DNA of 64,000 nucleotides from Alphaproteobacteria bacterium (GTDB taxonomy: Bacteria > Pseudomonadota > Alphaproteobacteria > Micavibrionales > Micavibrionaceae): contig JADLAT010000015.1 of assembly GCA_020848095.1 (NCBI GenBank), positions 62,001 through 126,000 on the forward strand. The letters are read 5' to 3'. Both the position numbers and the translations under genes were made by a program. Under the pieces are notes generated by a model that had not been told where the DNA came from, made no database searches, and worked only from the letters and a program-made list of their open reading frames with translations. Positions 17,378-34,485 of the stretch are shown in pieces; positions within the stretch are counted from its first letter, which is position 1; every line of letters starts with the position of its first letter.

Positions 17378-17450
17378 GAATTGGAGTTACGCAATTTAGG
17401 GCCTTTTTCAAGGCTTCCAGCCCAATCAAGGTTTGAAAGAGTTTTTAAAG

Positions 17451-19397
17451 ATGATCCATAAGGATAATAAAAGCAAAGGGCAGGGGGGCGGTGGTGTACA
17501 AGGCCCGGATAGCCGTTGCTTTGACACCTTTACGGACATGACGATTGAAATTGATCTGGAGGCGGAGGTCATTGATCAGGCTCCGGCAGATGGTCAGCTC
17601 CCGGTTCCTTTTATTCAACAAAAACAAAAGCCAGATAGCGGAATCCGGGGTGTGACGAAAGCATCCTCTGCTGTTGTAAGCGGATTTTCTCAGGAAGATG
17701 AGCAATATGGGCTCGGTAAAAAACTCCGCATCGGCGAGAGGCTAGTCAGCCGTGGGGTTATTACAGTTGACCAGTTGAATGTGGCGCTGCAGGAGAAAAA
17801 AATATCCGGCAAGATGCTGGGCGAGGTCATGGTTGATCTTGGTTTTATCAACGAAGAGACATTAAGCATTTTTCTGGCGGAATCGTCAGGGTTTGAGTTA
17901 TTTGACCCCAAGCACACCATCTTTGATGGCGATGTGCTGAATCTCATTGATAAGGCACTTGCGATCAAGCACCAGATGTTACCGGTTTCGAGAACAGAGC
18001 ATGATATCCGCGTGGCGATGGCCGATCCGTATGATGTTCTGGCGCTTGATACGCTGCGCCGGTTCTTGCCAAAGGGGCTTCATCTCAAGCCTATGGTCAG
18101 CACACCAAAAATTATTGGTGAGGCCATTGATGCCGCTTATGGCTATGCCAGCACCGTCAGCGCTATTTTAAAAGAGCTCGAGGGCGGAAAAGAACAAAAG
18201 GATGTTGCTTCGCTCAGCGAAAGTGAGCTTTTTTCTCACCCGATCGTGCGCCTTGTCAATGCGCTGGTGTTTGAGGCGGTGAAGATCGGGGCTTCGGACT
18301 TGCATTTCGAGCCTGAGGAAAACTTTATTCGGCTGCGCTATCGTCTTGATGGGGTGTTGTTTACCGCCCAGATTTTGCACAAGCAGCACTGGAGTGGAAT
18401 TTCGCAGCGTATAAAGATTATTTCCGGCATGAACATTGCCGATAAACTGGGCGCGCAGGATGGCCGTTTTCGGATGGACATCAGTGGCCGGGACGTGGAT
18501 TTTCGTGTGTCGTCCCTGCCCACGGTTTTTGGCGAAAATATCGTGCTGCGGGTTTTGGATCAAAGCGCCAGCATCATGCCGATGGAAAAGCTCGGCTTTA
18601 GCCCGCACAATCTCGAATTAATCAAAAAATCACAAAGCCGTCCAGAAGGGATCATCATCGTTACGGGGCCGACAGGGTCCGGTAAGACTACATCTTTGTA
18701 TTCCATGCTGAATGAGGTCAATGAGGTCGGTGTAAACATTCAAACGCTGGAAGATCCTGTTGAATATTCGCTGCCCATGATTCGGCAAACATATGTCCGG
18801 GAGGGGCTCTTGGAGTTTGCGGACGGGATTAAAGCGCTTTTGCGCCAGGACCCGGATATCATTTTCATAGGCGAGATCAGAGATGGTGAAACGGCGGGAA
18901 TGGCCTTGAAAGCCGCCATGACAGGGCACCAGGTCTATACAACGCTGCATACCAACGATTCCTTTGGGGCGATTCCCCGCCTTTTCGATCTTGGCCTGAA
19001 GCCCGGTATGGTGGCGGGCGCCATTTTGGCAATTTTTGCACAGCGGTTGACGCGCTGTCTTTGCGCAAATTGCAAGGAGGCCTATAAACCCGACGAGCAG
19101 GAATGCTTGATATTGGGTGTTGATTCGCAAGAGCCACCAACAGTTTACAGGGCAAGTCAGGGTGGTTGCGATTTGTGCGCGGGGCAGGGATATAAGGGGC
19201 GAACGGCTGTTGTTGAGATTTTGACTTTTGATGAGGATATGGACGAACTTTTGGCGCGCGCGGCAACAAAAGCCGACTTAAAAGCGCTTGCCGTAAAAAA
19301 GGGCTTCAAAAGTATGAAAGACGATGGCATTCTAAAGGTCTTGGGTGGAATCACAAGTCTTGAGGCTTTGTCCAAGGTCGTCGATATCAATAAATAG
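17451..19397 (+). CDS. gspE: Type II secretion/type IV pilus assembly ATPase (GspE/PilB/MshE family)
   Basis: Hexameric cytoplasmic ATPase that powers pilus or pseudopilus assembly. After a Gly/Gln-rich N-terminus it has an MshEN-type domain (about residues 85-230: LGKKLRIGERLVSRGVI, MLGEVMVDLGFI). The catalytic domain follows, with Walker A GPTGSGKTTSLYS near residue 405, an Asp-box LEDPVEYSLP, Walker B IIFIGEIRDGETA and a His-box TTLHTND. A four-cysteine zinc site is visible (CLCANC near residue 537 and CDLC near 573). The TTG at 17433 is an alternative start. First gene of the locus. Confidence 0.92.
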   Translation: MIHKDNKSKGQGGGGVQGPDSRCFDTFTDMTIEIDLEAEVIDQAPADGQLPVPFIQQKQKPDSGIRGVTKASSAVVSGFSQEDEQYGLGKKLRIGERLVSRGVITVDQLNVALQEKKISGKMLGEVMVDLGFINEETLSIFLAESSGFELFDPKHTIFDGDVLNLIDKALAIKHQMLPVSRTEHDIRVAMADPYDVLALDTLRRFLPKGLHLKPMVSTPKIIGEAIDAAYGYASTVSAILKELEGGKEQKDVASLSESELFSHPIVRLVNALVFEAVKIGASDLHFEPEENFIRLRYRLDGVLFTAQILHKQHWSGISQRIKIISGMNIADKLGAQDGRFRMDISGRDVDFRVSSLPTVFGENIVLRVLDQSASIMPMEKLGFSPHNLELIKKSQSRPEGIIIVTGPTGSGKTTSLYSMLNEVNEVGVNIQTLEDPVEYSLPMIRQTYVREGLLEFADGIKALLRQDPDIIFIGEIRDGETAGMALKAAMTGHQVYTTLHTNDSFGAIPRLFDLGLKPGMVAGAILAIFAQRLTRCLCANCKEAYKPDEQECLILGVDSQEPPTVYRASQGGCDLCAGQGYKGRTAVVEILTFDEDMDELLARAATKADLKALAVKKGFKSMKDDGILKVLGGITSLEALSKVVDINK

Positions 19398-19452
19398 CTT
19401 CCAGACAAAATCGTTTAGATTTTTATCAGGGTTCTGTCGAAGGGGACGCATC

Positions 19453-20706
19453 ATAGAACGGTATAAGTATAAAGCGATAAACACCAAAGGTCGGCCAATT
19501 CGTGGAAACATTTCCGCGGCCAGTGAGGTGGATTTATATAAGCAGCTGCAATCGGCGGGGCTGGAGCTTATTGACTGCTCTGTTGTTGGTGCCGGCAGCG
19601 GGCGCGGCCTGGGTCAGTTGACGCGAAAAAAAGTCAAGCTGCGGGACCTTATTCAATTTTTTGTCCATATGGAGCAGATGCAAAGTGCGGGCGTGCCGCT
19701 TCTGGATGCGCTTTCCGATATCCGTGATTCCACTGAGAACGATCATCTGCGCGATATTATGACGGAAATAAATAAAGATGTGTCGGACGGAAGCTCGCTG
19801 TCCGAGGCCATGCTCAAGCATCCAAAGGTCTTTAAGCCACTTTATATATCCTTGATTGAAGCCGGAGAGGAAACCGGCGATCTTACATCTTCTTATCTCC
19901 AGCTTGTGAAATACCTTAAATGGGTGGATGCAATATCGGCGAAAATTCGGAAAGCAACGCGTTATCCCGTAATTGTAACCATCGTGGTTCTGGGGACGAT
20001 TGTTTTTATGATGAGCGTGGTTGTACCACAAATCGTAGGATTCTTGAAATATTTGGATCTTGAGCTTCCCTGGTTCAGCGTATGGCTGATCGCGACATCT
20101 AACTTCTTTGTGGAGCCGCAATTCAGCGTTTTTGGGGTGCCCGTGTACGGGAGTTTCATCGTGATTACGGTGCCCCTTGTGTTGTTCATTATTATCAAGC
20201 TGTTAAGGAAGTCTTCTGATAACATCGCTTACCGCTTCGATTCCTGGTATTTGAAGGCGCCGGTGATCGGGCTACTTATCCGCAAAATTTCAATCGCACG
20301 TTATGCACAGACTTTCGGTGCGCTTTATTCGAGTGGTATTGATGTTATCAGCGCGCTTAAATCGGCCCGCGGGACGGTCACAAATCTCTTGATGATTGAT
20401 GCCATGGAATCGGTGGAGGCGCACGTTCAGGCCGGCAGTCCGCTCTCCGAGGCCTTTAATGCCAGCGGAGAGTTTCCTAGTATGGTTGTCCGTATGGTGC
20501 GGGTCGGAGAGGAGTCCGGTAACCTTACGCCGGTGCTTGATCAGGTCTCTGAATTCTACACACACGATGTTAATGAGGCGATCGAAGGTTTAATTGAGCT
20601 GATTCAACCGACATTAACTGCTATACTCGGTCTGATGATTGCTTGGATCGCGGCGGGAAGCCTCGGTCCGATCTATATGAATCTTGGTAACTTTATGGAT
20701 TACTAA
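19453..20706 (+). CDS. gspF: Type II secretion/type IV pilus inner-membrane platform protein (GspF/PilC family)
   Basis: Polytopic inner-membrane protein that couples the ATPase to pilin assembly. It has two GspF repeats (about residues 70-190 and 275-400: FFVHMEQMQSAGVPLLDAL and YAQTFGALYSSGIDVISAL) and membrane segments such as VIVTIVVLGTIVFMMSVVVP. Homology begins at the residues ERYKYKAINTKGRPIRG, whose preceding codon is ATA at 19453, 6 bases after AGGGGA. No ATG, GTG or TTG is in frame between 19363 and there. The nearest conventional start is the ATG at 19345, inside gspE, which would add 36 residues. Confidence 0.85.
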   Translation: MERYKYKAINTKGRPIRGNISAASEVDLYKQLQSAGLELIDCSVVGAGSGRGLGQLTRKKVKLRDLIQFFVHMEQMQSAGVPLLDALSDIRDSTENDHLRDIMTEINKDVSDGSSLSEAMLKHPKVFKPLYISLIEAGEETGDLTSSYLQLVKYLKWVDAISAKIRKATRYPVIVTIVVLGTIVFMMSVVVPQIVGFLKYLDLELPWFSVWLIATSNFFVEPQFSVFGVPVYGSFIVITVPLVLFIIIKLLRKSSDNIAYRFDSWYLKAPVIGLLIRKISIARYAQTFGALYSSGIDVISALKSARGTVTNLLMIDAMESVEAHVQAGSPLSEAFNASGEFPSMVVRMVRVGEESGNLTPVLDQVSEFYTHDVNEAIEGLIELIQPTLTAILGLMIAWIAAGSLGPIYMNLGNFMDY

Positions 20707-20735
20707 CGCTTTATTTCTTTATCTAGGTTTTATAA

Positions 20736-22367
20736 ATGTCCCTTTCTTTGTTGCCGAATAACCATACAGTTTTGATGATCTCGGATGAGTTTCTCTCGAT
20801 CTATGCCGTCACCGCGCGGAGCGCCCGGCTCGTGGAGACGGTTCCATGGGAGGCTGAGGATTTTGAGGCGAATGTCGCAGGGATCATAGCTAAGGATTGC
20901 GGAAGAAAATCCGTCTTGATCTTGAATGACATGGTGGAGCAGCACTATCGCAAGGAGCGTGTCATCCGCACTGGCGTGGGTTTTGCGGATCGTACGGCCC
21001 TGCTGCGCCGCAAGCTGAATGTTGCCTTTTCTGGTTTTCCGATTCGCGCGGCGTATCCTCTTAAGGAAAAAATGCCAAAAACCGATAAGCAGCCAGCTGC
21101 GGATATTTATATCTTTGCAGCGGTGGCAGGGACGGATCAATTCACGAAAACAATGAACGCCACGCGCAGTTCTTTGGCCTCAGTTTCCGGACTATGTCTC
21201 CTTCCTGTTGAATCTTCGGATATGATCGGGGCGCTCTCCGCCAAGCTGGTAAAAAAAGATAAAGCAAAGGCAGAGGCGCGTTGGTCTATATTTATGGGGC
21301 AGCATAGAAATGGCAGTCTGAGGCAGGTCGTTACCAAGAATGGGGAACTTGCTCTAACGCGTATGAGTCCGATTTCCAATGTTGAGGAGAATGCGGAGAT
21401 CTGGGCGCAGGATCTGCACCAGGAATTCAAGGCAACGATGAGCTATCTCTCACGTTTGGGGTATGAAGAACATGACGGCCTGGATGTTGTTGTCATTGCA
21501 ACCCATGCGGCAGGCGAAATACTAACGGGCCTTCTTGACGGGGCATACGATTTGCACGTGATGACGGTTATGGAGGTTGCGCAAGCTCTGGGCTTATCCA
21601 TAGGTCGGCAGGATTCCTTGCATTATGCTGATCCTCTGCACGTGGCATGGGTCGGGCGAAAACGTCGATTAATTTTATCTATGAAGGCGCCGATTATTGA
21701 TGATGTTTCCCGTCCTCGCCGGATGGCGGCGGCGGTGATGGCTGCGTTGGTTCTGGGGGGCGGGTTTCAGGGGTATCAATTCATTCAAAAGGCAGCCAGT
21801 GTCTCGGAAATTGGTAGTGAGATTTCTCAGAGGGAAAAGCAAAAGGCGCAACTCGATGTGGGGTATGAACGTGAAATCCGTCGCTTGAATGACGTTGGTT
21901 TTGATGCGCGTCGTGTGCAAAGTGCTATCGCCGTAAACGCCGCATTGGAAGCCCAAAATATAAAAGTTTTGAACGTTATCAATGGGATGGGGAAGGCCCT
22001 GGGGAAAAATTTACGAATTGACAGCTTGAATATTGAGCGCCCAAAGATCAGTTCTGTGGAAAAGTTTATTGACGGTATGGGAAAGAAAGCCCCACCTCTT
22101 TTTGAGGCCAGGATGCGTATGACTTACCCCGCCACCGCTAACGTTGATGCGGGAAATAAGGAGGTCCGGGATTTGCGCGACCGCTTGGAGATAGCGCTGC
22201 CGGATCATAAAGTTCGTGTTACAAAATTTCTTAAAGATTACGAATATACGGAAGGCCTCGTGGTTGAGGCCGGAGATTTGGAAAAGGAAAATATTCAGCA
22301 GGATTTTGTAGCTGAAATTCTTGTGCAGGGGCCGCCGCAGAGTTCGGAAAAGGTAATAAAACAATGA
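20736..22367 (+). CDS. GspL-like or fused PilM-PilN-like assembly protein
   Basis: A 543-residue bitopic protein. Residues 1-320 are cytoplasmic and resemble the actin-like fold of PilM/GspL (MSLSLLPNNHTVLMIS, SVLILNDMVEQHYRKERV, a late DVVVIATHAAGE). A single membrane helix (RRMAAAVMAALVLGGGFQGY, near residue 330) follows. The periplasmic part has a coiled coil and a ferredoxin-like segment (LRIDSLNIERPKI, EVRDLRDRLEIALP). This is the layout of GspL, or of PilM fused to PilN. The position after the platform gene and before a PilO-like gene supports an assembly-complex role. Sequence identity to named families is low. Confidence 0.7.
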   Translation: MSLSLLPNNHTVLMISDEFLSIYAVTARSARLVETVPWEAEDFEANVAGIIAKDCGRKSVLILNDMVEQHYRKERVIRTGVGFADRTALLRRKLNVAFSGFPIRAAYPLKEKMPKTDKQPAADIYIFAAVAGTDQFTKTMNATRSSLASVSGLCLLPVESSDMIGALSAKLVKKDKAKAEARWSIFMGQHRNGSLRQVVTKNGELALTRMSPISNVEENAEIWAQDLHQEFKATMSYLSRLGYEEHDGLDVVVIATHAAGEILTGLLDGAYDLHVMTVMEVAQALGLSIGRQDSLHYADPLHVAWVGRKRRLILSMKAPIIDDVSRPRRMAAAVMAALVLGGGFQGYQFIQKAASVSEIGSEISQREKQKAQLDVGYEREIRRLNDVGFDARRVQSAIAVNAALEAQNIKVLNVINGMGKALGKNLRIDSLNIERPKISSVEKFIDGMGKKAPPLFEARMRMTYPATANVDAGNKEVRDLRDRLEIALPDHKVRVTKFLKDYEYTEGLVVEAGDLEKENIQQDFVAEILVQGPPQSSEKVIKQ

Positions 22368-23005
22368 TTGGAGTTTTAGGCACAAAAAGGGTTCTGGCTA
22401 TTATATTATTATTGGCGTTGAATGTCATCCTGGCTATGGCTATTCATATGTACCTTGTTCCTCGTCAGGTACAACAGGGAAAAGATCTTCGAGGGCTTCA
22501 GGGCGAAATATCAACGATTGAGGGCGACATATCACGCATGAAAGTTGAGTTCTCACAGATCGAAACACAAAAAGAAGAATATGAAAGGTTAGAGAAACGC
22601 GGTTTCTTCAAGGATCAGAATCGGCGTGATGCCGAAAATGTTTTTAGTCACATCCAGAAATTTTCGGGGGTGAATGTTGCTGTCGCGAACATCAGTGCCG
22701 GTATAATCGAAGAAAATGCAGAAGCGAAAAAAGCTCGGCAAAGGATTTTAACAAGCCCTGTGAAGATCCGGATGGAGGCAGTCGATGACATTGATCTGTT
22801 TCATTACCTCTTTCTTTTGAATAATTACTTTCCCGGTCATATTACCGTTGAAAAAGTATCCTTTAAGCGAGAGTCTGATGTGACGGGAACGGTTCTTCGC
22901 AGTATTGCAACGGGCACCAATCCGCCGCTGGTGACGGCTGAGGTGGATGTTTTATGGCGAACCATGATTCCAGATGAAAATTTGACTGAAAAAGGCGCCC
23001 CTTAA
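22364..23005 (+). CDS. PilO/GspM-like inner-membrane assembly protein
   Basis: A 213-residue bitopic protein. A short cytoplasmic start is followed by a membrane helix (LAIILLLALNVILAMAIHMYLV), a periplasmic coiled coil (LRGLQGEISTIEGDISRMKVEF) and a ferredoxin-like C-terminal domain. This is the PilO/GspM layout. It overlaps the GspL-like gene by 4 bases (ATGA) and is followed 1 base later by the PilP-like gene, so the three are coupled as in pilMNOP. Confidence 0.7.
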   Translation: MIGVLGTKRVLAIILLLALNVILAMAIHMYLVPRQVQQGKDLRGLQGEISTIEGDISRMKVEFSQIETQKEEYERLEKRGFFKDQNRRDAENVFSHIQKFSGVNVAVANISAGIIEENAEAKKARQRILTSPVKIRMEAVDDIDLFHYLFLLNNYFPGHITVEKVSFKRESDVTGTVLRSIATGTNPPLVTAEVDVLWRTMIPDENLTEKGAP

Positions 23006-23006
23006 A

Positions 23007-23714
23007 ATGGAGATGTTTCCGATAAAATCTCTTCTAAATAAGAATGCAGCGTGGCTGGCCGTGTTTTGCTTTCCGATTTTTGCGTACGCGCAACCATTGC
23101 CACAAGACGGGAGCGGCGAAGTTTTGCCTTTATTGGAGGCGCCTTTGTCCGAAACACACTTGCCCGACGTACACTTGCAAGAGCAAGGCGCGGGCGCAGT
23201 ACAAATGCCGGAGGCGGCAGGACCGGCGCAGGGCACGGTGGGGAAGACTGCTGATGCTCTGACCCCTCCCGAGATTGCGCCAGAGCCGATGGTTGAGGGC
23301 GGGCCGGTGTTTAAAGCGAGTGAATACGGCTCGGTTCTCTTCACGTATTGGGAGCATGTGGCCATTCAAGACGCGCGGCGCAACTCCACAGGATATGCCA
23401 AGGCGCCCAGTGCGAGCGAGTTGGCGCGTTCCCTCAAAACACGTGAAGACGGAGAGCGGGTAAAGCCGCCGCCGGAAGAGCGTGAGATTCGCTTGAGCGG
23501 GATTGTTTACAAGGGCAGCGCTGATTGGGCGATATGGCTAAATAATAAACGGGTTACACCCGATGCCCTTCCCTCGGAAGTGCTCGACCTTAAGGTTTAT
23601 AAAAACTATGTGGAGATGAAATGGTTTGATGAGTATACAAACCAGATTTTACCGCTGCGTTTGCGTCCGCATCAGCGTTTTAATATTGATTCTCGCATAT
23701 TTTTACCCGGTTAG
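23007..23714 (+). CDS. PilP/GspC-like periplasmic assembly protein
   Basis: A 235-residue exported protein. A signal or anchor segment (AAWLAVFCFPIFAYAQ) is followed by a Pro/Gly/Ala-rich linker to about residue 95. A C-terminal beta domain begins REIRLSGIVYKGSADWAIWLNNKRVTP and ends PHQRFNIDSRIFLPG. That domain resembles the homology region by which PilP and GspC contact the secretin. Position directly after the PilO-like gene supports the call; similarity is by pattern only. Confidence 0.6.
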   Translation: MEMFPIKSLLNKNAAWLAVFCFPIFAYAQPLPQDGSGEVLPLLEAPLSETHLPDVHLQEQGAGAVQMPEAAGPAQGTVGKTADALTPPEIAPEPMVEGGPVFKASEYGSVLFTYWEHVAIQDARRNSTGYAKAPSASELARSLKTREDGERVKPPPEEREIRLSGIVYKGSADWAIWLNNKRVTPDALPSEVLDLKVYKNYVEMKWFDEYTNQILPLRLRPHQRFNIDSRIFLPG

Positions 23715-23752
23715 AGTGATAAGGGAGCTTCCTTACGGAGGCGTTTACAGCT

Positions 23753-24490
23753 TTGAGCATTATACAAAACGCAATTTTTGCTTCAGGGGTTTCGGTTAGT
23801 TACGCCCATAAGCCGGCGATCACGGATATTTCCTTTGCTGTGGAATCGGGGCAGCTCTTCGGCTTGATAGGGCTGAATGGCGCGGGAAAAACCACCTTTA
23901 TAAAAGCGTTACTGGGGTTGCGTGCCCCGGATTCCGGAACACTTCAGGTTTTTGATGAATCTGTCGCGCATTTTAAAACAAGTCGCCGTCTGGCCTTTCT
24001 GCCGGAACGCTTCGAACCCTCTTGGTTTTTAAGTGGGTTGGAATTCCTGAAATTTTCGGCAAGTCTTTATGGGCGCACACTTACAACGGCAGAGTGCCAA
24101 AAATCTGCGGAGCGTCTGGCCTTGGATCCCGGTGTTTTGAAAAAGCGTGTCCAGACATATTCAAAAGGAATGCGTCAAAAACTGGGGCTGCTGGCCACAA
24201 TTTTAACAGGAGCAGATCTTCTGGTGCTGGACGAACCGATGAGCGGACTTGATCCCGTCGCCAGAGCTCTTGTGAAGGAAATGATTCTGGAGGCAAAATC
24301 CGAAGGGCGGACGGTTTTTCTCAGCTCTCACATTCTGGCGGATATGGATGAGATTTGTAACGGTGTTGCTGTGCTGCATGATCGAACGGTTCAGTTTGTG
24401 GGCAAACCCGGTGAGTTTAGAGCGCTGACAAAAGCTGTGAATCTTGAGCGCGCTTTTTTACATTTTATTGAGAAAAAAGTGGCGGCGTGA
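23753..24490 (+). CDS. ABC transporter ATP-binding protein
   Basis: A 245-residue ATPase. Walker A is GLNGAGKTTFIKALLGL near residue 44, the signature is YSKGMRQKLGLLATIL, Walker B is DLLVLDEPMSGLDP, and the H-loop is FLSSHILADMDE. This is the CcmA/NatA type that pairs with ABC-2 permeases. TTG 23753 has GGAGG about 10 bases upstream. The matching permease is probably the ABC-2 gene at 30922, on the far side of the pilus genes. Confidence 0.9.
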   Translation: MSIIQNAIFASGVSVSYAHKPAITDISFAVESGQLFGLIGLNGAGKTTFIKALLGLRAPDSGTLQVFDESVAHFKTSRRLAFLPERFEPSWFLSGLEFLKFSASLYGRTLTTAECQKSAERLALDPGVLKKRVQTYSKGMRQKLGLLATILTGADLLVLDEPMSGLDPVARALVKEMILEAKSEGRTVFLSSHILADMDEICNGVAVLHDRTVQFVGKPGEFRALTKAVNLERAFLHFIEKKVAA

Positions 24491-24565
24491 TACGCTGCCT
24501 TGGAGTTTTTTCTCATTTGTTGCGGTATCTCGCGGGCGTTTTCTTTAACCGATCAGGGTATAGTC

Positions 24566-25609
24566 ATGTTTCTTTTCCACTCAAGGGTTGTTTTTGTTTC
24601 TTTGGTTACAGCTCTTCTTTTTACGGTTATCCCCGGATTTAAGCCGGTTCTCGCACAGGAACCTGTCGTGCAGAGCGCGCCGCCGCGCCAGCTTTTGCCA
24701 GGGGAGAATGTGCCTCTGATGGCTCCTGTTCCTGATGAATATCCGGCGAATCAGTCAGCCGGAGCACCTCAAGCTATGGACGGGGGCAGTGAATTTGTGC
24801 CGGCGCCGCCTGCGCAATCGGTTTTATCAGAACCCTCAGCGGCGACTCCAGAGCTTGCAACGGTCCCGGTTATGCCCTCGCCGGTATTGGATCAGGAGTT
24901 TGACGAGAATTTGTTTTTTGATGCGGAGGCTCTCGTGCCAGAAGGAGAGGTCGCACGCAAGGGCGCACCTTCCAAGGTAAATCCGTCCTTGAACCCGGCT
25001 TCTCGCTTCGTCATCAGCACAAAAGATTATAGCCCCAACAGCAAGGAAGCAAGGCTGGTAGCCGCTGATCGGGCAATGGTATTAGGGCGTTTTGAATCGG
25101 CGCTGGAAATTTACGATGGTCTTTACGCACAAAATCGCCGCGATCCTAATATCCTTCTGGGGAGAGCCATCGCGTTTCAAAGCCTGAACCGGGATGGTGA
25201 GGCTATCAACGCCTATGAGGAGCTTTTGAAGATTCGCCCTAAAAATATTGACGCGCAAATCAATCTAAATGGTCTGGTGGGCAAGCTGTACCCGGCGGTG
25301 GCCCTACAAAAGCTTAGGGACATTTATGACGACAATCCGGGAAATACGGCAACGGTAGCGCAGATGGCCGTCATGGAGGCCCGTCTTGGTCGCTATGAAG
25401 ATGCGATTCGCTATTTGGGGACAGCCGCCAGTATGGAGCCCAGAAATGCCGGCCACGTCTTCAATATGGCTGTTATAGCGGACCGGGCGGGCGACAAGAA
25501 AATGGCGATTAAGTATTATGAAGAAGCGCTTGAAATTGATACGCTTTACGGCTCCAGCCGCTCAATTCCCAGAGATACTGTTTTCGCGCGCTTGGCGCAG
25601 CTCCGCTAA
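24566..25609 (+). CDS. Exported TPR-repeat protein
   Basis: About 347 residues from the ATG at 24566, which gives a signal peptide (MFLFHSRVVFVSLVTALLFTVIPGFKPVLAQ is the leader region). A Pro/Ala-rich unstructured part to about residue 150 follows, then tetratricopeptide repeats (LGRFESALEIYDGLYAQNRRDP, NRDGEAINAYEELLKIRPKNI, LGRYEDAIRYLGTAASMEPRN, GDKKMAIKYYEEALEIDT). Periplasmic TPR proteins commonly assist pilus secretin or assembly complexes (PilF/TadD/MshN-like). That role is inferred from position. Confidence 0.75.
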   Translation: MFLFHSRVVFVSLVTALLFTVIPGFKPVLAQEPVVQSAPPRQLLPGENVPLMAPVPDEYPANQSAGAPQAMDGGSEFVPAPPAQSVLSEPSAATPELATVPVMPSPVLDQEFDENLFFDAEALVPEGEVARKGAPSKVNPSLNPASRFVISTKDYSPNSKEARLVAADRAMVLGRFESALEIYDGLYAQNRRDPNILLGRAIAFQSLNRDGEAINAYEELLKIRPKNIDAQINLNGLVGKLYPAVALQKLRDIYDDNPGNTATVAQMAVMEARLGRYEDAIRYLGTAASMEPRNAGHVFNMAVIADRAGDKKMAIKYYEEALEIDTLYGSSRSIPRDTVFARLAQLR

Positions 25610-25611
25610 AT

Positions 25612-26424
25612 ATGCAGGGCGGTTTATCAGCCCTGCCTATAGGGACGATTTTACCTTTCCCGTTGGAAGTCATTCTGATTGCTGCACTCGGGCTTATTTT
25701 AGGGAGTTTTGCGACAGCACTCTCCTATAGGGGGCAGCGTGGAATTGCCTGGTACGGGTGTGGCGATCGTTCCTTTTGTCCTCATTGTCATCATGTTTTG
25801 AGCATTCTGGATCTTCTGCCCTTATTATCCTGGCTGTTTCTGCGTGGGCGCTGTCGCCACTGCCGGGCGCATATTTCCAGATTTTACCCTTTGACGGAAA
25901 CCGTGCTGATGGCCCTCTGTCTGCTGTATTATTTTGTATATGGCTTATCTGACCCCGGAGCGGTTGTTCCCATATTCTTTGCACTGCCGTTTCTTTGGGC
26001 GTTGGTTGTAATTGATTTGCGCACAAAAACTTTGCCTGACGATCTTGTGCTGGCCGTACTGATACTGGGAGGCTTCAGGCTCGTTTCCACAGCATTCGCG
26101 CATGAAACGTTACTCGCTCCGCTTTTTTCTGCGATGGCGGGCGCGGTTGTTTTTGGCGGAATTTCGTGGGCGGCGGGCATGCTGGTGAGCAAAGTAACCG
26201 GAAAAGCGGCTCTGGGCTTTGGCGATGTTAAGTTTTTTGCCGTGGCCGGGCTCTGGCTGGGTCTGTCTTTTCTGGCGTGGTTTTGTATTATAGCCGGGGT
26301 TTCCGGGCTTGTTTTGGGGGTAATCTGGCGATGGCTCACCGGGGAAGAGCGTTTCCCCTTCGGGCCAGCGCTTATTTTTTCTTTTTGTTCTATTCTGGCT
26401 TTCGGTGGTTCTCTTTCTCCATAA
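25612..26424 (+). CDS. pilD: Type 4 prepilin peptidase / methyltransferase
   Basis: Polytopic membrane aspartic protease that cleaves and N-methylates prepilins. The N-terminal zinc-type cysteines are present as CPHC (near residue 57) and CRHC (near residue 82). The two catalytic Asp motifs are visible as VVIDLRTKTLPDD (near residue 134) and GFGDVKFF (near residue 205). At 270 residues and about eight membrane segments it is a usual length. It follows the TPR gene by 2 bases. Its substrate here should include the pilin at 33751. Confidence 0.92.
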   Translation: MQGGLSALPIGTILPFPLEVILIAALGLILGSFATALSYRGQRGIAWYGCGDRSFCPHCHHVLSILDLLPLLSWLFLRGRCRHCRAHISRFYPLTETVLMALCLLYYFVYGLSDPGAVVPIFFALPFLWALVVIDLRTKTLPDDLVLAVLILGGFRLVSTAFAHETLLAPLFSAMAGAVVFGGISWAAGMLVSKVTGKAALGFGDVKFFAVAGLWLGLSFLAWFCIIAGVSGLVLGVIWRWLTGEERFPFGPALIFSFCSILAFGGSLSP

Positions 26425-26538
26425 AGGCCGTTATGCTATGATAATCGAGCCGTATTTACGTTCTCTTTACCCGCGTGCGTTACAACTAAGGGATGGTGAA
26501 TTTCTTTACTCCCGTTTTTCCAGCAAAAGGAGATTTCT

Positions 26539-27723
26539 TTGGACCTGACACAGCTTCTTGCCTTCACGATGCAAAATGGGGCCTCTGACCTCCATTTAAG
26601 CGCTGGAAACCCACCGATTATTCGCGTTAATGGCTTGCTTAAACGCGTTAAGGCCGATCCGCTTTCGAGCGATGATATCCGGACAATGCTCTATTCCGTG
26701 ATGACGGAGGATCAGCGAGCGGAATACGAAAAAAACATGGAACTGGACTTTGCAATCGCGCTGGGGGAGAAGGCGCGTTTCCGTGTTAATGGGTTTAATA
26801 CGCGGTTGGGGGCTTCCTCGGTGTTTAGAACAATCCCGACGGAGGTTCCGTTAATGGAAGATCTGGGCTTGCCACCTGTTATGCGCAGGCTGGCGGATCT
26901 TGAAAAGGGAATTGTCATTGTCACAGGCCCGACAGGGAGTGGTAAATCAACAACACTGGCCTCCATGATCAATCATATCAATATCCATCATTCCAAACAT
27001 ATTCTTACAATTGAAGATCCGGTTGAGTTTTTCCACACTTCTAAAAAATGCCTGATTAATCACCGAGAAGTAGGAACGGATACAAACTCGTTCGCCCGAG
27101 CGCTGAAAAGCGCACTGCGCGAAGACCCTGATGTGATTCTCGTAGGAGAGATGCGGGATTATGAGACAATTTCTCTGGCATTGACCGCCGCGGAAACAGG
27201 TCACCTGGTTTTCGCCACGCTTCACGCCAACTCCGCAGCAAAAACAATTGATCGTATTATTGATGTGTTCCCGACCGGGGATAAGGAAATGGTGCGTGCC
27301 ATGCTTTCCAGCTCTTTGCAGGGCGTAATTGCGCAAACGCTGGTTCGGCGCGCGGACGGGCAGGGACGTCTTGGTGCTTATGAAATTCTGATCGGCACGA
27401 ACGCCGTACGGAACTTGATTCGTGAGAACCAGGTCCCACAAATGTATTCGATGATGCAAACAGGGTCGCGCTATGGCATGATCACCATGCAGGACGCTAT
27501 CGCAGATCTGTTTGAAACAGGATTGATTGATCAGGACGAGGCGCGGCGCGCAACCGTTCTGACGACCGGCTCAGAGGAAGAGGCTGGCAGTGAGTCGGGA
27601 TATGCCGCTGCGGCTCTTGGCGGTGGCAAGCTGGATGGTGATTCTATGTCACCGCCCCCTGTCATGAAGGGGGGCTCCGTTCGCGGCGGAGGTGGCTCCA
27701 AGGATGAAGGGTATTCATTTTGA
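26539..27723 (+). CDS. pilT: Type IV pilus retraction ATPase (PilT)
   Basis: A 394-residue cytoplasmic hexameric ATPase. It opens with QNGASDLHLSAGNPP, then Walker A GPTGSGKSTTLASMINHIN near residue 131, the Asp-box TIEDPVEFFH, Walker B DVILVGEMRDYETI and the His-box FATLHANSA. The C-terminal tail is Gly/Ser-rich (AAALGGGKLDGD to the end), longer than in typical PilT. TTG 26539 is used with AAAAGGAG 8 bases upstream. The stop overlaps the TTG of the next gene. Confidence 0.93.
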   Translation: MDLTQLLAFTMQNGASDLHLSAGNPPIIRVNGLLKRVKADPLSSDDIRTMLYSVMTEDQRAEYEKNMELDFAIALGEKARFRVNGFNTRLGASSVFRTIPTEVPLMEDLGLPPVMRRLADLEKGIVIVTGPTGSGKSTTLASMINHINIHHSKHILTIEDPVEFFHTSKKCLINHREVGTDTNSFARALKSALREDPDVILVGEMRDYETISLALTAAETGHLVFATLHANSAAKTIDRIIDVFPTGDKEMVRAMLSSSLQGVIAQTLVRRADGQGRLGAYEILIGTNAVRNLIRENQVPQMYSMMQTGSRYGMITMQDAIADLFETGLIDQDEARRATVLTTGSEEEAGSESGYAAAALGGGKLDGDSMSPPPVMKGGSVRGGGGSKDEGYSF

Positions 27724-28874
27724 ACTCTTCGGCACATCCTCCAATCGTCCTTGATTACCTTAAGGCCATGAATGAACAAAAGGCGAGCGACCTTTACCTT
27801 ACGGTAGGGCGCGAACCAACGCTCAGGGCAGATGACCGGATGGTTGTCCTCGGTGGGGGGGTATTAACGCCCGCGGATATAGAAGATATTCTTGTATCCA
27901 TTCTGACCAGCCGGCAACGGCGTGAATTTGAAACGTCTTTTGAGTTGAATACAGCATTAGATATGGCGGAAAACGGCAGGTTCCGTGTTAATGTGCTTAA
28001 GCAAAGACAGTTTCCGGCACTGGTGATACGCCGTATTGTATCTCATATCCCTAGCGTGGCTGATCTTAAGCTACCGCCCATCCTTGAACGGCTGGCTCTT
28101 GAAAAAAGGGGGCTGGTTCTGGTGACGGGGATCACCGGTTCGGGTAAATCGACAACTTTGGCCTCTATGGTGGATCATCGTAACCGTTCGACCGAAGGGC
28201 ACATCATCACCATCGAAGACCCGATCGAATATTTCCATGAACATAAAAAATCTGTGGTTACTCAGCGAGAGGTCGGCGTCGATACGGAATCCTATGCCGT
28301 TGCGATGAAAAATTCCTTGAGGCAACGTCCTGATGTGATTCTCGTAGGGGAGATACGCGATCGTGAGGTTATGGAGCAGGCATTAACCATCACAGAGACG
28401 GGGCATTTGTGCCTGGCCACAATCCACACCAATAACGCCTATCAAGCCATTGAGCGTATTGTGAACTTCTTCCCGGAGGAGTTGGCAGGACAGGTGCGCC
28501 TTAATCTTTCTATGAATTTAAAAGCGATTATCTCGCAAAGGCTGCTGCAGGACAAAAGCGGCTCAATGGTTCCTGCCGCTGAAATTATGCTCAATCAGGG
28601 GTTGGTGCGTGAGTTGATTCTCAAAGGAGAAATCACGAAAATCAAAGATGTGATGGAGCAGAATAATTCTTTGGGCATGTGCACATTTGATCAGGCTCTC
28701 CTGCGCCTTTTTGCCGATGGGTTTATCACTGAAGATGTCGCTATCAGCAATTCCGATAAGCCGACAGATCTGAAAATCAAGGTGCAACAGCTAAAACTTT
28801 CTGGATCTGTAGGGGGCAATGGTGGCAATACGCTTTCGGATCTTGATACATCGCGAATAAGGTTTGGGGATTGA
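27720..28874 (+). CDS. pilU: PilT/PilU-like ATPase paralogue
   Basis: A 384-residue second retraction-type ATPase. It has NEQKASDLYLTVGREPTLR, Walker A GITGSGKSTTLASMVDHRN near residue 137, TIEDPIEYFHEHKKS, DVILVGEIRDREVMEQ and LATIHTNNAYQAIERIVNFFP. The EYFHEHKKS and IHTNNAYQA segments are the PilU type, and PilU usually assists PilT. TTG start with a TTGA overlap to the pilT stop indicates coupled translation. Confidence 0.88.
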   Translation: MNSSAHPPIVLDYLKAMNEQKASDLYLTVGREPTLRADDRMVVLGGGVLTPADIEDILVSILTSRQRREFETSFELNTALDMAENGRFRVNVLKQRQFPALVIRRIVSHIPSVADLKLPPILERLALEKRGLVLVTGITGSGKSTTLASMVDHRNRSTEGHIITIEDPIEYFHEHKKSVVTQREVGVDTESYAVAMKNSLRQRPDVILVGEIRDREVMEQALTITETGHLCLATIHTNNAYQAIERIVNFFPEELAGQVRLNLSMNLKAIISQRLLQDKSGSMVPAAEIMLNQGLVRELILKGEITKIKDVMEQNNSLGMCTFDQALLRLFADGFITEDVAISNSDKPTDLKIKVQQLKLSGSVGGNGGNTLSDLDTSRIRFGD

Positions 28875-28990
28875 AGCCCATAGGCGACATATCTCTATTG
28901 TTTCTGGGTATTTCTTGTGATGTAGTAAGAATCATTGCGCATGTTGTGCGTGTTTCTGACCCTTGTTTTCTTGATTTAAGGCATTTCCCG

Positions 28991-30901
28991 ATGATGAACA
29001 TTCTTTCAGGCAAAAAATACCGCTTCCGTTTTATGATCTACACGTGTTTCCTGCTTTTGCCTCTTCTCTCTATGACGGGCTGCGATTTCGCTGAGAATAC
29101 ACTGAAGTCGGATCGCGAAGGCAATCTTGAAAAGCAGGATTTTAGAGACGCGCTGTCCTCTCGAATATCGGATGAGGAAGAGGGCGGTGATAATGCGGTG
29201 CAGGCCGCAGGAATTCCGGATCTCCAACCCTATGTCTCCAGTACGGGCGAGCGCATGAAGGCGATGCCTTTGGTCTCAATTTCAATTAACCAGTCTGTCC
29301 CCATTCGTGATGCCCTGTTTGAGTTGGCGCAACAGGCTAATTACGACATTGAACTGGATCCGCGTATCAGAGGGGCTATTATTTTTACCGCGAGAGAGCG
29401 CCCATTTGATGAAGTCATCCGGCGCATGAGCGAGATAGCTGGTCTGCGATATAAGTTTGAAGATGATGTGCTGCGTGTGGAGTTGGATACGCCGTACAAC
29501 AAGGTTTATAAAGTGGATTATCTGAGCTATATCCGCTCCAATACGAGCGGTATCCGTAATGATATCGCGGTGGTGAGCGGAGAGGGGGCTGATACAGGGT
29601 CTAAATTCGAATCGCTCTCCAAAAGTGAAGCTGATTTCTGGGGAGAACTGGAAACCAACCTTGAGCAGATTGTTCGTGGCAATCAGACTGGCGCATTGAA
29701 AACGAGAAAAGACCCTCGTATAACCGCTACAGAGCAAAATGCGGACGTTCGTGCGGTCGCTCCGACCTCAACCGATGGGAAGGGCGGCACAACTGTTCAG
29801 GTTCAGCCGCCGCAGGCAACCTTGCGGGTGGATTCTCTCCCTCTGGATGATGAGGAGGATACGCGCTCCGCGTCAAAAAACAAAGGTACTGAGGCACAAA
29901 GTGAGGCTCGCTTTACAATCAATCGTCAGGCCGGCATGATCAATGTGTATGCCAGCGAAGCTGCACATAAAGAGGTCGATGCTTATCTCAAGCTCGTAAG
30001 GCGCGCGGTAACTTCGCAGGTTTTGATTGAGGCCAAAATTCTTGAAGTCACATTAGACGATGAATTTGCGACCGGTATTGACTGGCGCGCTCTTGGCATA
30101 CTATCCGGCGAAGTGACGCTTGATTTCCTTAATGCCGGAACCTCCCGTTCGTCCTCTACTTTGGTTCCTGCCACCGCGGCAGGTTTGAGCGGCGCCACCG
30201 TAGCAGACGACGCCAGTCTTGTTCTGGGCTATACCGGGAATGATATTCAATCCTTAATTCAGGCGGTATCCGGCTTTGGAACTGTGCGGGCTCTGGCCAG
30301 CCCCCGCTTGACTGTTTTGAATAACCAATCGGCAATTCTTAACGTATCTACCAACAGAGTGTTTTTTGAAATTGATATTGATGTAACGACCAACGAGGGA
30401 GATACATCAACCGATATTTCCAGCGACATCCGCAACGTTCCTGAAGGCGTGCTGGTGAATGTTCAGCCCTCCATCAATCTGGATAGCAATACAGTCTCCC
30501 TGGCTTTGCGCCCAACCATCACACGGGTGGTCCGAAGCATCCCGGATCCTGCTATCCAATTCGTAACCGCCAGCGCGGGTATTGAGGGCGTGCAGTCTTT
30601 AGTCCCCGAAATTAACGTGCAGGAAATTGACTCTGTCATTCAGGTGCGCTCCGGTCAGCCGGTCGTTATGGGTGGTTTGTTGCAAGATCGCATTGTCTCC
30701 AATGAAACGGGCGTTCCTGTTTTGAGCGAGGCTCCCCTATTCGGAGCCTTATTCAGAGATCATCGGGATCATGCACAGAAAACAGAGCTTGTGGTTTTCC
30801 TGAAGGCGACCATTTTGGAAAACCCTGCGGAGAGCGTTCATAATACGGACAAAGACCTTTATCGGCAGTTTTCTTCGGATCGTCGGCCCTTTAAACTCTA
30901 G
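28991..30901 (+). CDS. mshL: Outer-membrane secretin, MshL/PilQ-like lipoprotein
   Basis: Forms the outer-membrane channel for the pilus. ATG 28991 or 28994 gives a lipoprotein signal ending LLPLLSMTGC; a TTG at 28871 is open in frame but would bury that signal. After an acidic linker come a short N0/STN-like domain (VPIRDALFELAQQANYDIELDPRI), the DFWGELETNLEQIV segment seen in MshL, a low-complexity insert, and the secretin core. The core includes VLIEAKILEVTLDDEFATGIDW, ALASPRLTVLNNQSAILNV and PVVMGGLLQDRIVSNETGVPVLSEAPLFGALF. Confidence 0.9.
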   Translation: MMNILSGKKYRFRFMIYTCFLLLPLLSMTGCDFAENTLKSDREGNLEKQDFRDALSSRISDEEEGGDNAVQAAGIPDLQPYVSSTGERMKAMPLVSISINQSVPIRDALFELAQQANYDIELDPRIRGAIIFTARERPFDEVIRRMSEIAGLRYKFEDDVLRVELDTPYNKVYKVDYLSYIRSNTSGIRNDIAVVSGEGADTGSKFESLSKSEADFWGELETNLEQIVRGNQTGALKTRKDPRITATEQNADVRAVAPTSTDGKGGTTVQVQPPQATLRVDSLPLDDEEDTRSASKNKGTEAQSEARFTINRQAGMINVYASEAAHKEVDAYLKLVRRAVTSQVLIEAKILEVTLDDEFATGIDWRALGILSGEVTLDFLNAGTSRSSSTLVPATAAGLSGATVADDASLVLGYTGNDIQSLIQAVSGFGTVRALASPRLTVLNNQSAILNVSTNRVFFEIDIDVTTNEGDTSTDISSDIRNVPEGVLVNVQPSINLDSNTVSLALRPTITRVVRSIPDPAIQFVTASAGIEGVQSLVPEINVQEIDSVIQVRSGQPVVMGGLLQDRIVSNETGVPVLSEAPLFGALFRDHRDHAQKTELVVFLKATILENPAESVHNTDKDLYRQFSSDRRPFKL

Positions 30902-30921
30902 CTGAGTATCTGGAGGGGCTT

Positions 30922-31683
30922 TTGTCACTGGCTCTGGTTCGTTATGTTCTGATTGCCGCTTTGCGTGATCGTCTGGTTTTAGGGTTAATTATCCTGATGG
31001 CGCTGGGCGTGGCCATGTCCGTGTTTCTAGGCTCGGCAGCTATCACGGAGCAGGGCCGGTTTGTGGCGGTCTATGCTGCAGGCTCTCTGCGCATGATTAA
31101 CGTACTGGGGCTGGTTCTTTTCGCCGTTTTCTTTATCCGCCGAAGTTTTGATGCGCGTGATATAGAGTTTATGCTCTCTCGGCCGATCGGACGAATACGA
31201 TTTCTTCTCTCTTACGTCGCAGCGTTCTCTCTGCTGGCGGCGTGTTTCGGCGCAATAACCGGACTTTGCCTTTTTGTACTCTCTCCGGAGCAGGATAGGG
31301 GAGGGCTTATACTCTGGACGATCAGTCTCGTGGTCGAAAATATCATCATTATTAACACAGCGTTGTTCTTCTCAATGATCCTTACGAGCGCGGCAACCGC
31401 GGCCTTTGCCGTTTTTGGGTTTTACGTGCTGGCCCGGATGATGTCTCAGATTTTGGGTATAATAGATTCCGGTAAAAGCGAAATGAACTCGAGTGTTCTC
31501 GAAACAATTATGCAAGGTATTTCCATGGTGATGCCTCGCCTTGATCTGATGGCACAAACATCGTGGCTCCTTTATGGCGTAAATGACGCGGCCGGGCTTG
31601 TCTTTGTGTTGGCGCAAGGAACTACGTATCTGGCGGTTATTGTGCTGGCGGCCTTGGTTGATCTAAGGTTCAGGCAGTTCTGA
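30922..31683 (+). CDS. ABC-2 type transporter permease
   Basis: A 253-residue polytopic membrane protein with about six helices (RLVLGLIILMALGVAMSVFLG, MINVLGLVLFAVFFI, FLLSYVAAFSLLAACFGAITGL, IIIINTALFFSMILTSAATAAF, AVIVLAALVDLRF). The layout is that of ABC-2 exporters (NosY/CcmB-like). TTG 30922 follows GGAGGGG. It is the probable partner of the ATPase at 23753, since no other ABC gene is in the locus. Its stop shares a base with the next start (TGATG). Confidence 0.8.
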   Translation: MSLALVRYVLIAALRDRLVLGLIILMALGVAMSVFLGSAAITEQGRFVAVYAAGSLRMINVLGLVLFAVFFIRRSFDARDIEFMLSRPIGRIRFLLSYVAAFSLLAACFGAITGLCLFVLSPEQDRGGLILWTISLVVENIIIINTALFFSMILTSAATAAFAVFGFYVLARMMSQILGIIDSGKSEMNSSVLETIMQGISMVMPRLDLMAQTSWLLYGVNDAAGLVFVLAQGTTYLAVIVLAALVDLRFRQF

Positions 31684-32417
31684 TGTCACGTTCCGGCTCC
31701 AGAGCATGGCTTGTTCTTCTGTTTGTCACAGCCCTCTTCGCCAATATTCTGGTCTGGTACTCCGTGCGCCCGGTTTTGGCCCGGTGGACGAACGTTCCGC
31801 CACCGCCCTCAAGTGGAACCGCCCGCCTGATCGGCTTAGGGGATGCGCAGCTTTCCTACAGAATTTACGGCATTATGATTCAAAATTTTGGCGATACCGG
31901 CGGTCGTACAACCCGGCTGGCTGATTACGATTTCGAAGCTTTGGGGCAGTGGTTCATGTTGCAGCAGGAACTCGACCCGGTTTCTGATTTCACCCCCTTT
32001 CTGGCGGCTTATGTTTTTGGCGGCTCGCAAGACCCAAAGAAGCTAGGGCCGGTAATCCGCTATCTTGAGAAAGCCGCCGGAAACGGGGAAGGGGAGAAAT
32101 GGCGCTGGCTTGGGCAAGCGGTATATCTGGCCCGGTTCCGGATGGAGGATATGGATACGGCGCTCCGGCTGGCCCGAAAGCTTGCGGCCTTTGATAACCC
32201 GGATATGGCCTCGTGGGCGCGTCAGGCCCCGGTCTTCGTAATGACCGCGATGGGGGATAAGGAAGCGGCCTATACCCTGATGATGAATATGTTGACGTCC
32301 AGCGCAGAAAAGCTGGACCCTAATGAGGTCAACGCGATGGTCGATTACCTCTGTACACGTATTTTGGATAAGCAAATGGCGGCAAAACACCCCTTGTGCA
32401 AGGATAACCATCCCTAA
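31683..32417 (+). CDS. Membrane-anchored TPR-like hypothetical protein
   Basis: A 244-residue protein with one N-terminal membrane helix (AWLVLLFVTALFANILVWYSV) and a helical periplasmic domain. Repeats in that domain look like degenerate TPR/Sel1 units (KKLGPVIRYLEKAAGNGEGEKWRWLGQAVYLARF, DMDTALRLARKLAAFDNP, DKEAAYTLMMNMLTSSAE). It is translationally coupled to the ABC permease by TGATG, so a joint role with that transporter is likely. Family not recognised. Confidence 0.65.
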   Translation: MSRSGSRAWLVLLFVTALFANILVWYSVRPVLARWTNVPPPPSSGTARLIGLGDAQLSYRIYGIMIQNFGDTGGRTTRLADYDFEALGQWFMLQQELDPVSDFTPFLAAYVFGGSQDPKKLGPVIRYLEKAAGNGEGEKWRWLGQAVYLARFRMEDMDTALRLARKLAAFDNPDMASWARQAPVFVMTAMGDKEAAYTLMMNMLTSSAEKLDPNEVNAMVDYLCTRILDKQMAAKHPLCKDNHP

Positions 32418-32462
32418 GGGTTTTCCTCTTCGCAAACGGGGAAGATATGCTATTTTCCTTCT

Positions 32463-33557
32463 ATGAACGGGCTTAGTTTTTCATTGTTAGAGGTCTTATT
32501 CCTCATAGGCGTTGTGCAATGCGTCTATGTGGCCGTCCATATCGCCTTTAGATTTGCTCAGCTCCGCCATGCGCTCCTGCCGTTTTTATATTTTGTTTTG
32601 CTGGGACTGGCCTTTTTGGCTGATTTCGGTGTGGAGCGGCTGTCTCTTTCCGTTGACGGCGTGGGGGGAACGTATTTCTACATTCACTGGGCGCTTTGGT
32701 TTTCTGTGCCTCCGCTGAGCGTGCTTCTTGTCTTTCAGATCGCAGAGAAATCTCGAAAGCCGGATCATCCGGGCAATGTCTGGGTAATGGGGCTGGTGCC
32801 GCTTGGCATGGCGCTTGCCGGAATTGTCGCCGCCAGGGCCGAGCCGGGCTGCTCTCTCATGACGCCCTGCCGGATTTTATATGACATGCTGGGCGTCACC
32901 GGTTTAATGTCCGGCGCCATCAGCCTTCTGGTTATTTTCAGCCGTCAGGACCTGCTTAAGAACCTCTACCGTCAAAAATCAGGTCAAACGCGCTATTGGC
33001 TTATTTTTGCGATTATCTCGCTCAATACCTTATTTCTGGCCATTATGCTTGGGGGGCTGATCGGGCGATTAGGGTCATCCGAAGTTCTGGCCATGCGGGG
33101 GGTTCTGGGGCTGGGCTTTGTATATCTGGCGGGCACGGGATTTTTTCGAATTTACCCTTATGAGACAAAATCCGGCCTGTCACCTTCTGCATCGGACAAC
33201 CCGCCGCTGGATGAGGTGGAACAGGCATTGGCCCAGCGGATCGAGGGTCTGCTGAATCTGGAAAAAGTATATCAGGAGCCAACCTATTCCCGCGCCGACC
33301 TCGCGCATGAATGCGGCGTTCCCGAAAGCGCGATCTCACGGGTTATTAATGCGCATTTTGGCAAAACATTTCCCCGCCTTATAAATGAACGCCGTGTAGA
33401 GGATGCAAAGCGGCTCTTGCTGGAGACCGATGCCCCGGTGCAGCTTATCTGTTCTGAGGTCGGGTTTAACTCACTGGCCTCCTTCAACCGGAGCTTCCGG
33501 GAAATAACGGATGATTCGCCGGGGCAATTCAGAAAACGCACGCGCGGCGGCGGATGA
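32463..33557 (+). CDS. Membrane-embedded AraC-family transcriptional regulator
   Basis: A 364-residue protein with about seven membrane segments in residues 1-225 (LLEVLFLIGVVQCVYVAV, LLPFLYFVLLGLAFLADF, WALWFSVPPLSVLLVF, WVMGLVPLGMALAGIVAA and more). A C-terminal AraC DNA-binding domain carries both helix-turn-helix units (LAHECGVPESAISRVINAHFG and LICSEVGFNSLASFNRSFRE). The membrane part probably senses something in the envelope. It sits directly upstream of the pilin gene, which makes that gene the obvious target, but no operator can be shown. Confidence 0.85.
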   Translation: MNGLSFSLLEVLFLIGVVQCVYVAVHIAFRFAQLRHALLPFLYFVLLGLAFLADFGVERLSLSVDGVGGTYFYIHWALWFSVPPLSVLLVFQIAEKSRKPDHPGNVWVMGLVPLGMALAGIVAARAEPGCSLMTPCRILYDMLGVTGLMSGAISLLVIFSRQDLLKNLYRQKSGQTRYWLIFAIISLNTLFLAIMLGGLIGRLGSSEVLAMRGVLGLGFVYLAGTGFFRIYPYETKSGLSPSASDNPPLDEVEQALAQRIEGLLNLEKVYQEPTYSRADLAHECGVPESAISRVINAHFGKTFPRLINERRVEDAKRLLLETDAPVQLICSEVGFNSLASFNRSFREITDDSPGQFRKRTRGGG

Positions 33558-33689
33558 GCCGCTCAATTCGTTTTTTTGAGCATGCAATTTGTGCCGGATA
33601 AGAGGATTGTCCATTCTTCTTAAGGGTTTGTTCAGACATTTCCGTCGAAACTGGAAGAATTAGGGCTATATCGGAAGGCTTTTGGCGTG

Positions 33690-33695
33690 TATAAT
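33690..33695 (+). promoter_or_regulatory. -10-like hexamer upstream of the pilin gene
   Basis: A perfect TATAAT lies 55 bases upstream of the pilin ATG, in a 193-base gap after the AraC gene. No good -35 is found 16-18 bases upstream, which would fit an activator-dependent promoter. No sigma54 -24/-12 pattern was seen. Confidence 0.4.
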
Positions 33696-33750
33696 CTTCG
33701 GACTGACTCGCCACCTATTTCACTCAAAATCTTTAAGGAGAAACACTATA

Positions 33751-34485
33751 ATGAAGAACAATTTACAAAAAATTCGCGGAGACGCGCAGGGTTTTACCCT
33801 CGTCGAACTTGCGGTTGTGATGATCATCATCGGCATCCTGATCGGCGGTATCTTGAAAGGACAGGAACTGATTACGAATGCCCGCGTAACATCCTCTATC
33901 AGCCAGATGGAGTCCTTGGGTGCGGCCTATAACGGTTTCCGTGACCAGTATGCTGCTTTGCCGGGCGATATAATCAATGCCGTGACACGGGTTCCAGGAT
34001 GTAATGTTCTCCCTTGCGCGAACGGAGATGGGAGCGGAGTCGTTGATACGAATGTGGGGGCGGCCTCAGCCTACGCCAACGAAGGTACACAATTTTTTGT
34101 CCATCTCCTGAATGCCGGTTTTATTACAGGCATGTCAGGAGCTAATGCTGCAGAAGCCTTTGGTGTAAGTAATCCGGCAGCCCCGATTGGTGGAGGCTTT
34201 ACAGCAGGTGATGCGCGTACAGGCACGAATGGCTTTACGGCAGCGGATCTCGGGGCAACGGTTCATCTTGTTTTAACAGGGACAATGGCCAACGTTGCCG
34301 CTGGACAGGGGATTCTGACACCACAACAGGCCAGCAATCTGGATCGTCGTTTGGATGATGGCGTTCCTAACTCCGGTTCTGTTGTAGGTCAGACATTTGC
34401 GGCAGATGCGGATTGTACAGGAGCGACGGCAGATGTATACGGTTCTGACAACTCTCAGGTCTGTGTGGTCGCCCTTAGTCTCTAA
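33751..34485 (+). CDS. Type IV prepilin / pseudopilin
   Basis: A 244-residue prepilin. ATG 33751 follows AAGGAG by 10 bases. A 14-residue charged leader ends at Gly14, followed by FTLVELAVVMIIIGILIGG with Glu at mature position 5, the classic peptidase substrate. The globular part has the YAALPGDI segment seen in many alphaproteobacterial pilins, a Cys pair (PGCNVLPCANGDGSG) and a C-terminal Cys pair (DADCTGATADVYGSDNSQVC). It is the only pilin in the locus and ends at a strong terminator, so it is probably the major subunit. Confidence 0.9.
   Translation: MKNNLQKIRGDAQGFTLVELAVVMIIIGILIGGILKGQELITNARVTSSISQMESLGAAYNGFRDQYAALPGDIINAVTRVPGCNVLPCANGDGSGVVDTNVGAASAYANEGTQFFVHLLNAGFITGMSGANAAEAFGVSNPAAPIGGGFTAGDARTGTNGFTAADLGATVHLVLTGTMANVAAGQGILTPQQASNLDRRLDDGVPNSGSVVGQTFAADADCTGATADVYGSDNSQVCVVALSL

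Follow-up and report, generated by a model that had tools for sequence, protein, structure and literature searches.

To our knowledge, no ATP-binding cassette (ABC) transporter figures in the standard models of how type IV pili are assembled, and a term search of two reviews found none named as a pilus part. The closest described system is that of Myxococcus xanthus, whose pilG, pilH, and pilI genes encode an ABC transporter within the pil cluster that is needed for pilus formation (1998 work cited in PMC3724824). The same source states that pilin requires PilGHI to cross the inner membrane (PMC3724824), and deletion of pilGHI leaves cells defective in social motility and exopolysaccharide (PMC5544727). 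According to one paper, this transporter was believed to be restricted to the Myxococcus cluster, and experimental data in support are lacking (PMC6060248). PilGHI has so far stood alone as a pilus ABC transporter, and the trio there, similar to the one described here, is little understood. The present locus occupies positions 17433–34485 of a 64,000-nucleotide stretch of contig JADLAT010000015.1 (hereafter the window) from an alphaproteobacterium of the Micavibrionaceae, and encodes an ABC ATPase (23753–24490), an ABC-2 permease (30922–31683), and a third protein that we name tprM (31683–32417), all on the plus strand among pilus genes. A sequence-only reading of this DNA had held that ABC genes are not standard in type IV pilus loci, thereby overlooking the M. 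xanthus pil cluster. Many distantly related bacteria keep the set together, and the transporter is therefore very probably a functional component of the pilus.

The likeness to PilGHI is one of gene context. In both, an ABC ATPase, a permease, and a third protein are encoded in a type IV pilus cluster, adjoining pilin and machine genes, and PilI is about the size of the third protein here (its deletion runs to codon 250). In the Micavibrionales the ATPase and permease are moreover co-conserved with the pilus. The two systems differ in that about 6.4 kb separates the ATPase and permease genes of the window, that its third protein is a membrane protein resembling tetratricopeptide repeat (TPR) proteins, and that its pilus is MSHA-like. 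By this analogy, working in the manner of Myxococcus PilGHI appears the likeliest mode of action. No earlier description of this module was found in the literature searched, which comprised open-licence papers only and may have missed one.

Judged by its gene order in relatives, this is the standard pilus locus of the Micavibrionales (Alphaproteobacteria). Gene context was scored in 41 loci from the family and the order, which span four families, and the arrangement pilB-pilC-gspL-pilO-pilP-ATPase-TPR-pilD-pilT-pilU-secretin-permease-tprM recurs in 37, some with ends cut by contigs; the remaining four comprise two too short to tell, one rearranged, and one without the ABC genes. When loci were instead found via the permease, it lay directly after the secretin gene in all 80 named loci, followed by tprM wherever the contig continues. 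Conservation on this scale is, as a statement about gene order, far beyond chance. Co-occurrence was assessed in 103 genomes of the order, each at least 90% complete, with the GspL-like gene and the permease scored separately: both are present in 91 and absent from nine, two have the GspL-like gene only, and one the permease only (Fisher p 2e-10, without correction for shared ancestry). Better evidence than this p value comes from losses inside a carrier genus, exemplified by genome G806, which has lost both genes in a genus (g35) otherwise carrying both. No second pilus-type ATPase lies elsewhere in the genomes listed, the next-best ABC ATPases reaching at most 140 bits versus 350–401 for the pilus type. 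The sequence-only reading was right that the two ABC genes belong together and to the pilus locus. Its own refuting conditions were checked; relatives with the pilus keep both genes, and the one exception has lost both. Several apparent departures were set aside. Two of the three genomes with only one of the scored genes, G847 and G822, reflect contig ends (the G822 contig starts inside the locus, and gspL of G847 runs off its contig); locus L106, a candidate ABC pilus without PilT/PilU, has PilT-family genes on another contig of its genome; and the extra space separating the ATPase and TPR genes in many loci is due to a greater length of the TPR gene, with no gene inserted.

The one real exception, genome G029 (L086, C1:832000–851999), retains pilB, pilC, gspL, pilO, pilP, and the TPR, secretin, and pilin genes. 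The ATPase, permease, tprM, PilT, and PilU are missing together, and the pilD open reading frame (ORF) is only about 96 residues long. The best ABC ATPase of this genome scores 124 bits, versus the 350–401 of carriers, so the pilus ATPase has not moved elsewhere in the genome, which likewise retains no PilT-like match as strong as usual. The locus looks like a stripped or decaying form of the pilus locus. A different kind of departure is offered by G026 (L072, L224), a 63–65% GC family member in which the pilus genes are spread over several contigs. One contig carries pilB to pilP followed by about 7 kb of other sequence, the ATPase and TPR genes are on C24, and tprM, the secretin, and the permease are on C30. 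Retention of the ABC genes after such rearrangement is, at the level of gene content, the strongest evidence for their link to the pilus. The order on C30 is tprM-secretin-permease, versus the usual secretin-permease-tprM. In another genome (G359; L171, C6:331500–351499), a second permease copy lies without adjoining tprM or secretin, with PilT/PilU nearby on the other strand.

Alphaproteobacteria of other orders place the ATPase gene after pilP or pilO; the permease is paired with tprM, usually beside the secretin, and the two blocks are often far apart in the genome. Because split blocks are seen across the class, the gap of about 6.4 kb in the window, by its layout, is one form of a class-wide two-block arrangement. 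Seven of nine such genomes carry a pilus-type ATPase above 225 bits, G284 (80% complete) and G392 being the two without; a class-level match in G431 (E 8e-4, five stops) was discarded. The tprM profile reaches 33 of 398 genomes of the phylum, 30 of them outside the class and in ten families, and had no match in a plasmid collection. Across 20 loci from other classes (L197–L216), the permease adjoins or lies near tprM in 19, and a pilus-type ATPase falls within the stretch in 12, usually in the order permease-tprM-pilin-ATPase; pilB and pilC are also held by 11 of the other-class loci examined. Several of these genomes have two copies of the permease-tprM-pilin-ATPase cassette.

The ATPase and permease are, by profile and predicted fold, a type V (NosFY-like) ABC transporter. 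The ATPase keeps its Walker A, signature, and Walker B motifs intact in 36 aligned orthologues, and its profile finds ABCA-type ATPases and NosF (4e-50) as nearest solved relatives. The permease alone has no Pfam match, and ABC2_membrane_2 is detected in 10 of 41 orthologues; its AlphaFold2 model (predicted local distance difference test score, pLDDT, 89.9) has NosY as best fold match (Z 19.3, 237 aligned residues, root-mean-square deviation 3.8). What sets the present system apart from NosFY(D) is that no NosD-like periplasmic protein occurs here, the partner being tprM, and that the context is a pilus. The gliding motility proteins GldA/GldF/GldG offer a second comparison, in which an ABC module is likewise tied to a surface-motility machine and the ATPase matches GldA at 9e-36, far under the cut-off. 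Unlike the present locus, that system has no type IV pilus, and no Gld partner genes are found here.

Pfam and NCBIfam searches with single tprM and permease sequences gave nothing useful. The predicted structure of tprM (pLDDT 91.5) comprises one N-terminal membrane helix and a TPR-like helical solenoid. Cys224 and Cys239, near its C-terminus, are all-or-none in 38 of 39 sequences, both being present in 30 and both absent in eight. Such pairing suggests a disulphide, and hence a domain on the periplasmic side.

From the co-conservation, we infer an action on pilin or the pilus machine, and consider it reasonably likely that the ATPase, permease, and tprM form a dedicated ABC complex of the inner membrane that serves pilus biogenesis. 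Two copies of the ATPase would drive two NosY-type permeases, with tprM anchored by its one helix and its TPR-like arm in the periplasm, close to the pilus machine. Changes in the permease powered by ATP would then act on pilin or on the assembly machine, in secretin or pilin handling, and the complex would thereby be required for pili to form or cycle, in line with what is reported for M. xanthus PilGHI. The conserved partners of the module are pilin, the PilP-like protein, and the secretin. Several observations weigh on the other side. The mirror-tree correlation inside the trio is only slightly above that between the trio and other pilus genes, too weak to use; a fold search with tprM returned generic TPR or solenoid proteins, the best (Z 10.9) not above helical-repeat level; the eight sequences lacking the cysteine pair may be one clade; and the losses in G029, where PilT/PilU are gone and pilD is cut, may stem from general decay of the locus. 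A wider proposition, on balance doubtful, is that a whole subtype of type IV pili across Pseudomonadota generally includes a dedicated, ATP-driven ABC complex of the inner membrane, equipped with a TPR arm and so far overlooked, that would act directly on pilin or on assembly of the machine; PilGHI would be only its best known example.

Might the ABC pair instead export a separate substrate for decorating or lubricating the pilus, such as a lipid, a polysaccharide precursor, or a small peptide, with tprM as an exporter accessory? The fold class does contain exporters, since the permease profile also reaches the PmtD peptide exporter (E 2e-5 by sequence) and its fold matches include lipid-moving ABCA/ABCG proteins. 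Against this, the conserved core of every lineage read holds no glycosyltransferase and no lipid-, sugar-, or peptide-synthesis or processing gene, its conserved partners being pilus components instead. A separate substrate is thus unlikely, and the export of a lipid, sugar, or peptide favored by the sequence-only reading finds no counterpart in the gene content. Quite unlikely, too, is a mechanical relay resembling FtsEX or MacB, in which the trio would open or remodel the cell wall, or aid the secretin in crossing it, with no substrate moved. NosDFY-type complexes can act on periplasmic partners, the model of tprM provides a membrane-anchored arm, and the permease and tprM lie beside the secretin in most Alphaproteobacteria read; other classes, however, place the permease-tprM pair beside pilin, not the secretin, and the core is without a peptidoglycan enzyme. 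That the ABC genes are incidental passengers of a long operon with no pilus role is very improbable: shared regulation can keep operonic neighbors together, but the joint presence or absence of the GspL-like gene and the permease in 100 of 103 genomes, the retention of the ABC genes after breakup of the locus, and their recurrence, in another gene order, in the pilus loci of other classes all run counter to it, and for these reasons the ABC-pilus link, as read from gene distribution, is not incidental.

If a comparable module is kept in Micavibrio-type predators and at least 10 families of other classes, the role of ABC transporters in the pilus becomes testable in many organisms, and the module may matter for the attachment of epibiotic predators to prey. 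The Micavibrio aeruginosavorus genome paper describes dispersed pil genes, pilus proteins standing in for missing type II secretion parts, and expression of pilus genes during attack or attachment (PMC3189940). A term search of that paper returned no ABC module.

All parts of a retractable type IV pilus are present, namely pilin, prepilin peptidase, assembly ATPase, platform, and secretin, together with PilT and PilU genes (26539 and 27720) that are conserved in relatives. Its kinship with the mannose-sensitive haemagglutinin (MSHA) pilus lies in an MshE-type assembly ATPase with an MshEN domain (17433), an MshL-like secretin, and a TPR protein. MshL is the best of the secretin models, at 217 bits for TIGR02519 (cut-off 250) versus 130 for GspD and 84 for PilQ. 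MshM is mandatory for MSHA according to Denise et al. 2019 (PMC6668835). A motif search confined to the Micavibrionales loci found no MshM AAA ATPase, whereas an MshM-like one was recognized by motif in some relatives from other families (two other-class loci, and G157 within the class). Because PilT and PilU are present and MshM is missing from the locus, it is, by gene content, an MSHA-related pilus not filed as MSHA, from which the added ABC module also distinguishes it. Type II secretion systems are marked by GspC/GspM, several pseudopilins, and absence of PilT; the locus, which has one pilin with both PilT and PilU, is not such a system. The sequence-only reading was therefore right in seeing a real, intact, MSHA-like pilus locus, as the ATPase and secretin attest, and finds no support in calling it a hybrid with type II secretion, given PilT, PilU, and a separate GspE-like gene on contig C17. 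Its single pilin holds for the locus and fails for the genome, which encodes three further N_methyl proteins on C17. On that contig (G000, 251347–279409), the second GspE-like ATPase and the three N_methyl proteins lie about 25 kb apart; they are probably part of another system, either a pseudopilus or one for type II secretion.

The locus lies in a 1.99-Mb genome that is 99.7% complete, and the nearest named relatives of the window are uncultured Alphaproteobacteria and Micavibrio. Its 15 genes form one plus-strand run, in which gaps exceed 100 bases only twice, upstream of pilT and of the pilin gene; ORFs, strand, and families are as first read, the GspL-, PilO-, and PilP-like labels resting on position and architecture, as Pfam family models gave no match. 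First comes the MshE/PilB-like assembly ATPase (17433–19397; T2SSE E 6.8e-111, MshEN 2.5e-13), followed by the PilC/MshG-like platform protein (19345–20706; T2SSF 3.8e-51), whose true start is 3' of 19345, probably near 19460; the protein begins MERYKY in relatives. The tentatively labeled GspL-like or PilM-PilN-like protein (20736–22367) belongs to a conserved family, A4, and the sole pilus match of its profile in the PDB is Myxococcus PilN (E 0.33). Equally tentative are the PilO-like protein (22364–23005), with an N-terminal membrane helix and kept in all intact loci, and the conserved PilP-like protein (23007–23714). Beyond the ABC ATPase (ABC_tran 1.4e-21) are the TPR protein (24500–25609; Pfam TPR), about 600–800 residues long in some relatives, and the prepilin peptidase PilD (25612–26424; A24_N_bact 1.3e-22, Peptidase_A24 1.4e-14). 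Gene order and T2SSE matches identify the PilT-like (26539–27723; 9.7e-53) and PilU-like (27720–28874; 2.9e-43) retraction ATPases, which precede the secretin (28871–30901; Pfam Secretin 1.5e-31). The TGATG coupling of permease to tprM noted earlier is exact, with the stop TGA at 31681–31683 and the ATG at 31683–31685. The run closes with an AraC-type regulator (32463–33557; HTH_18 1.7e-21) and the type IV pilin (33682–34485; N_methyl 4.1e-7), which bears the prepilin leader GFTLVEL. The regulator has several membrane helices in its strongly hydrophobic N-terminal half, and stands between tprM and pilin in most relatives and is missing in some. A promoter scan performed no better than on shuffled sequence (20 vs. 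17.5), and terminator-like sites, at 36 vs. 23.0 in shuffles, were mostly intragenic and not used. Right after the pilin gene, on the minus strand (34558–35109), is a small protein (VVQGDITRQNTDAIV) that, judged by eye only, resembles a macro domain.

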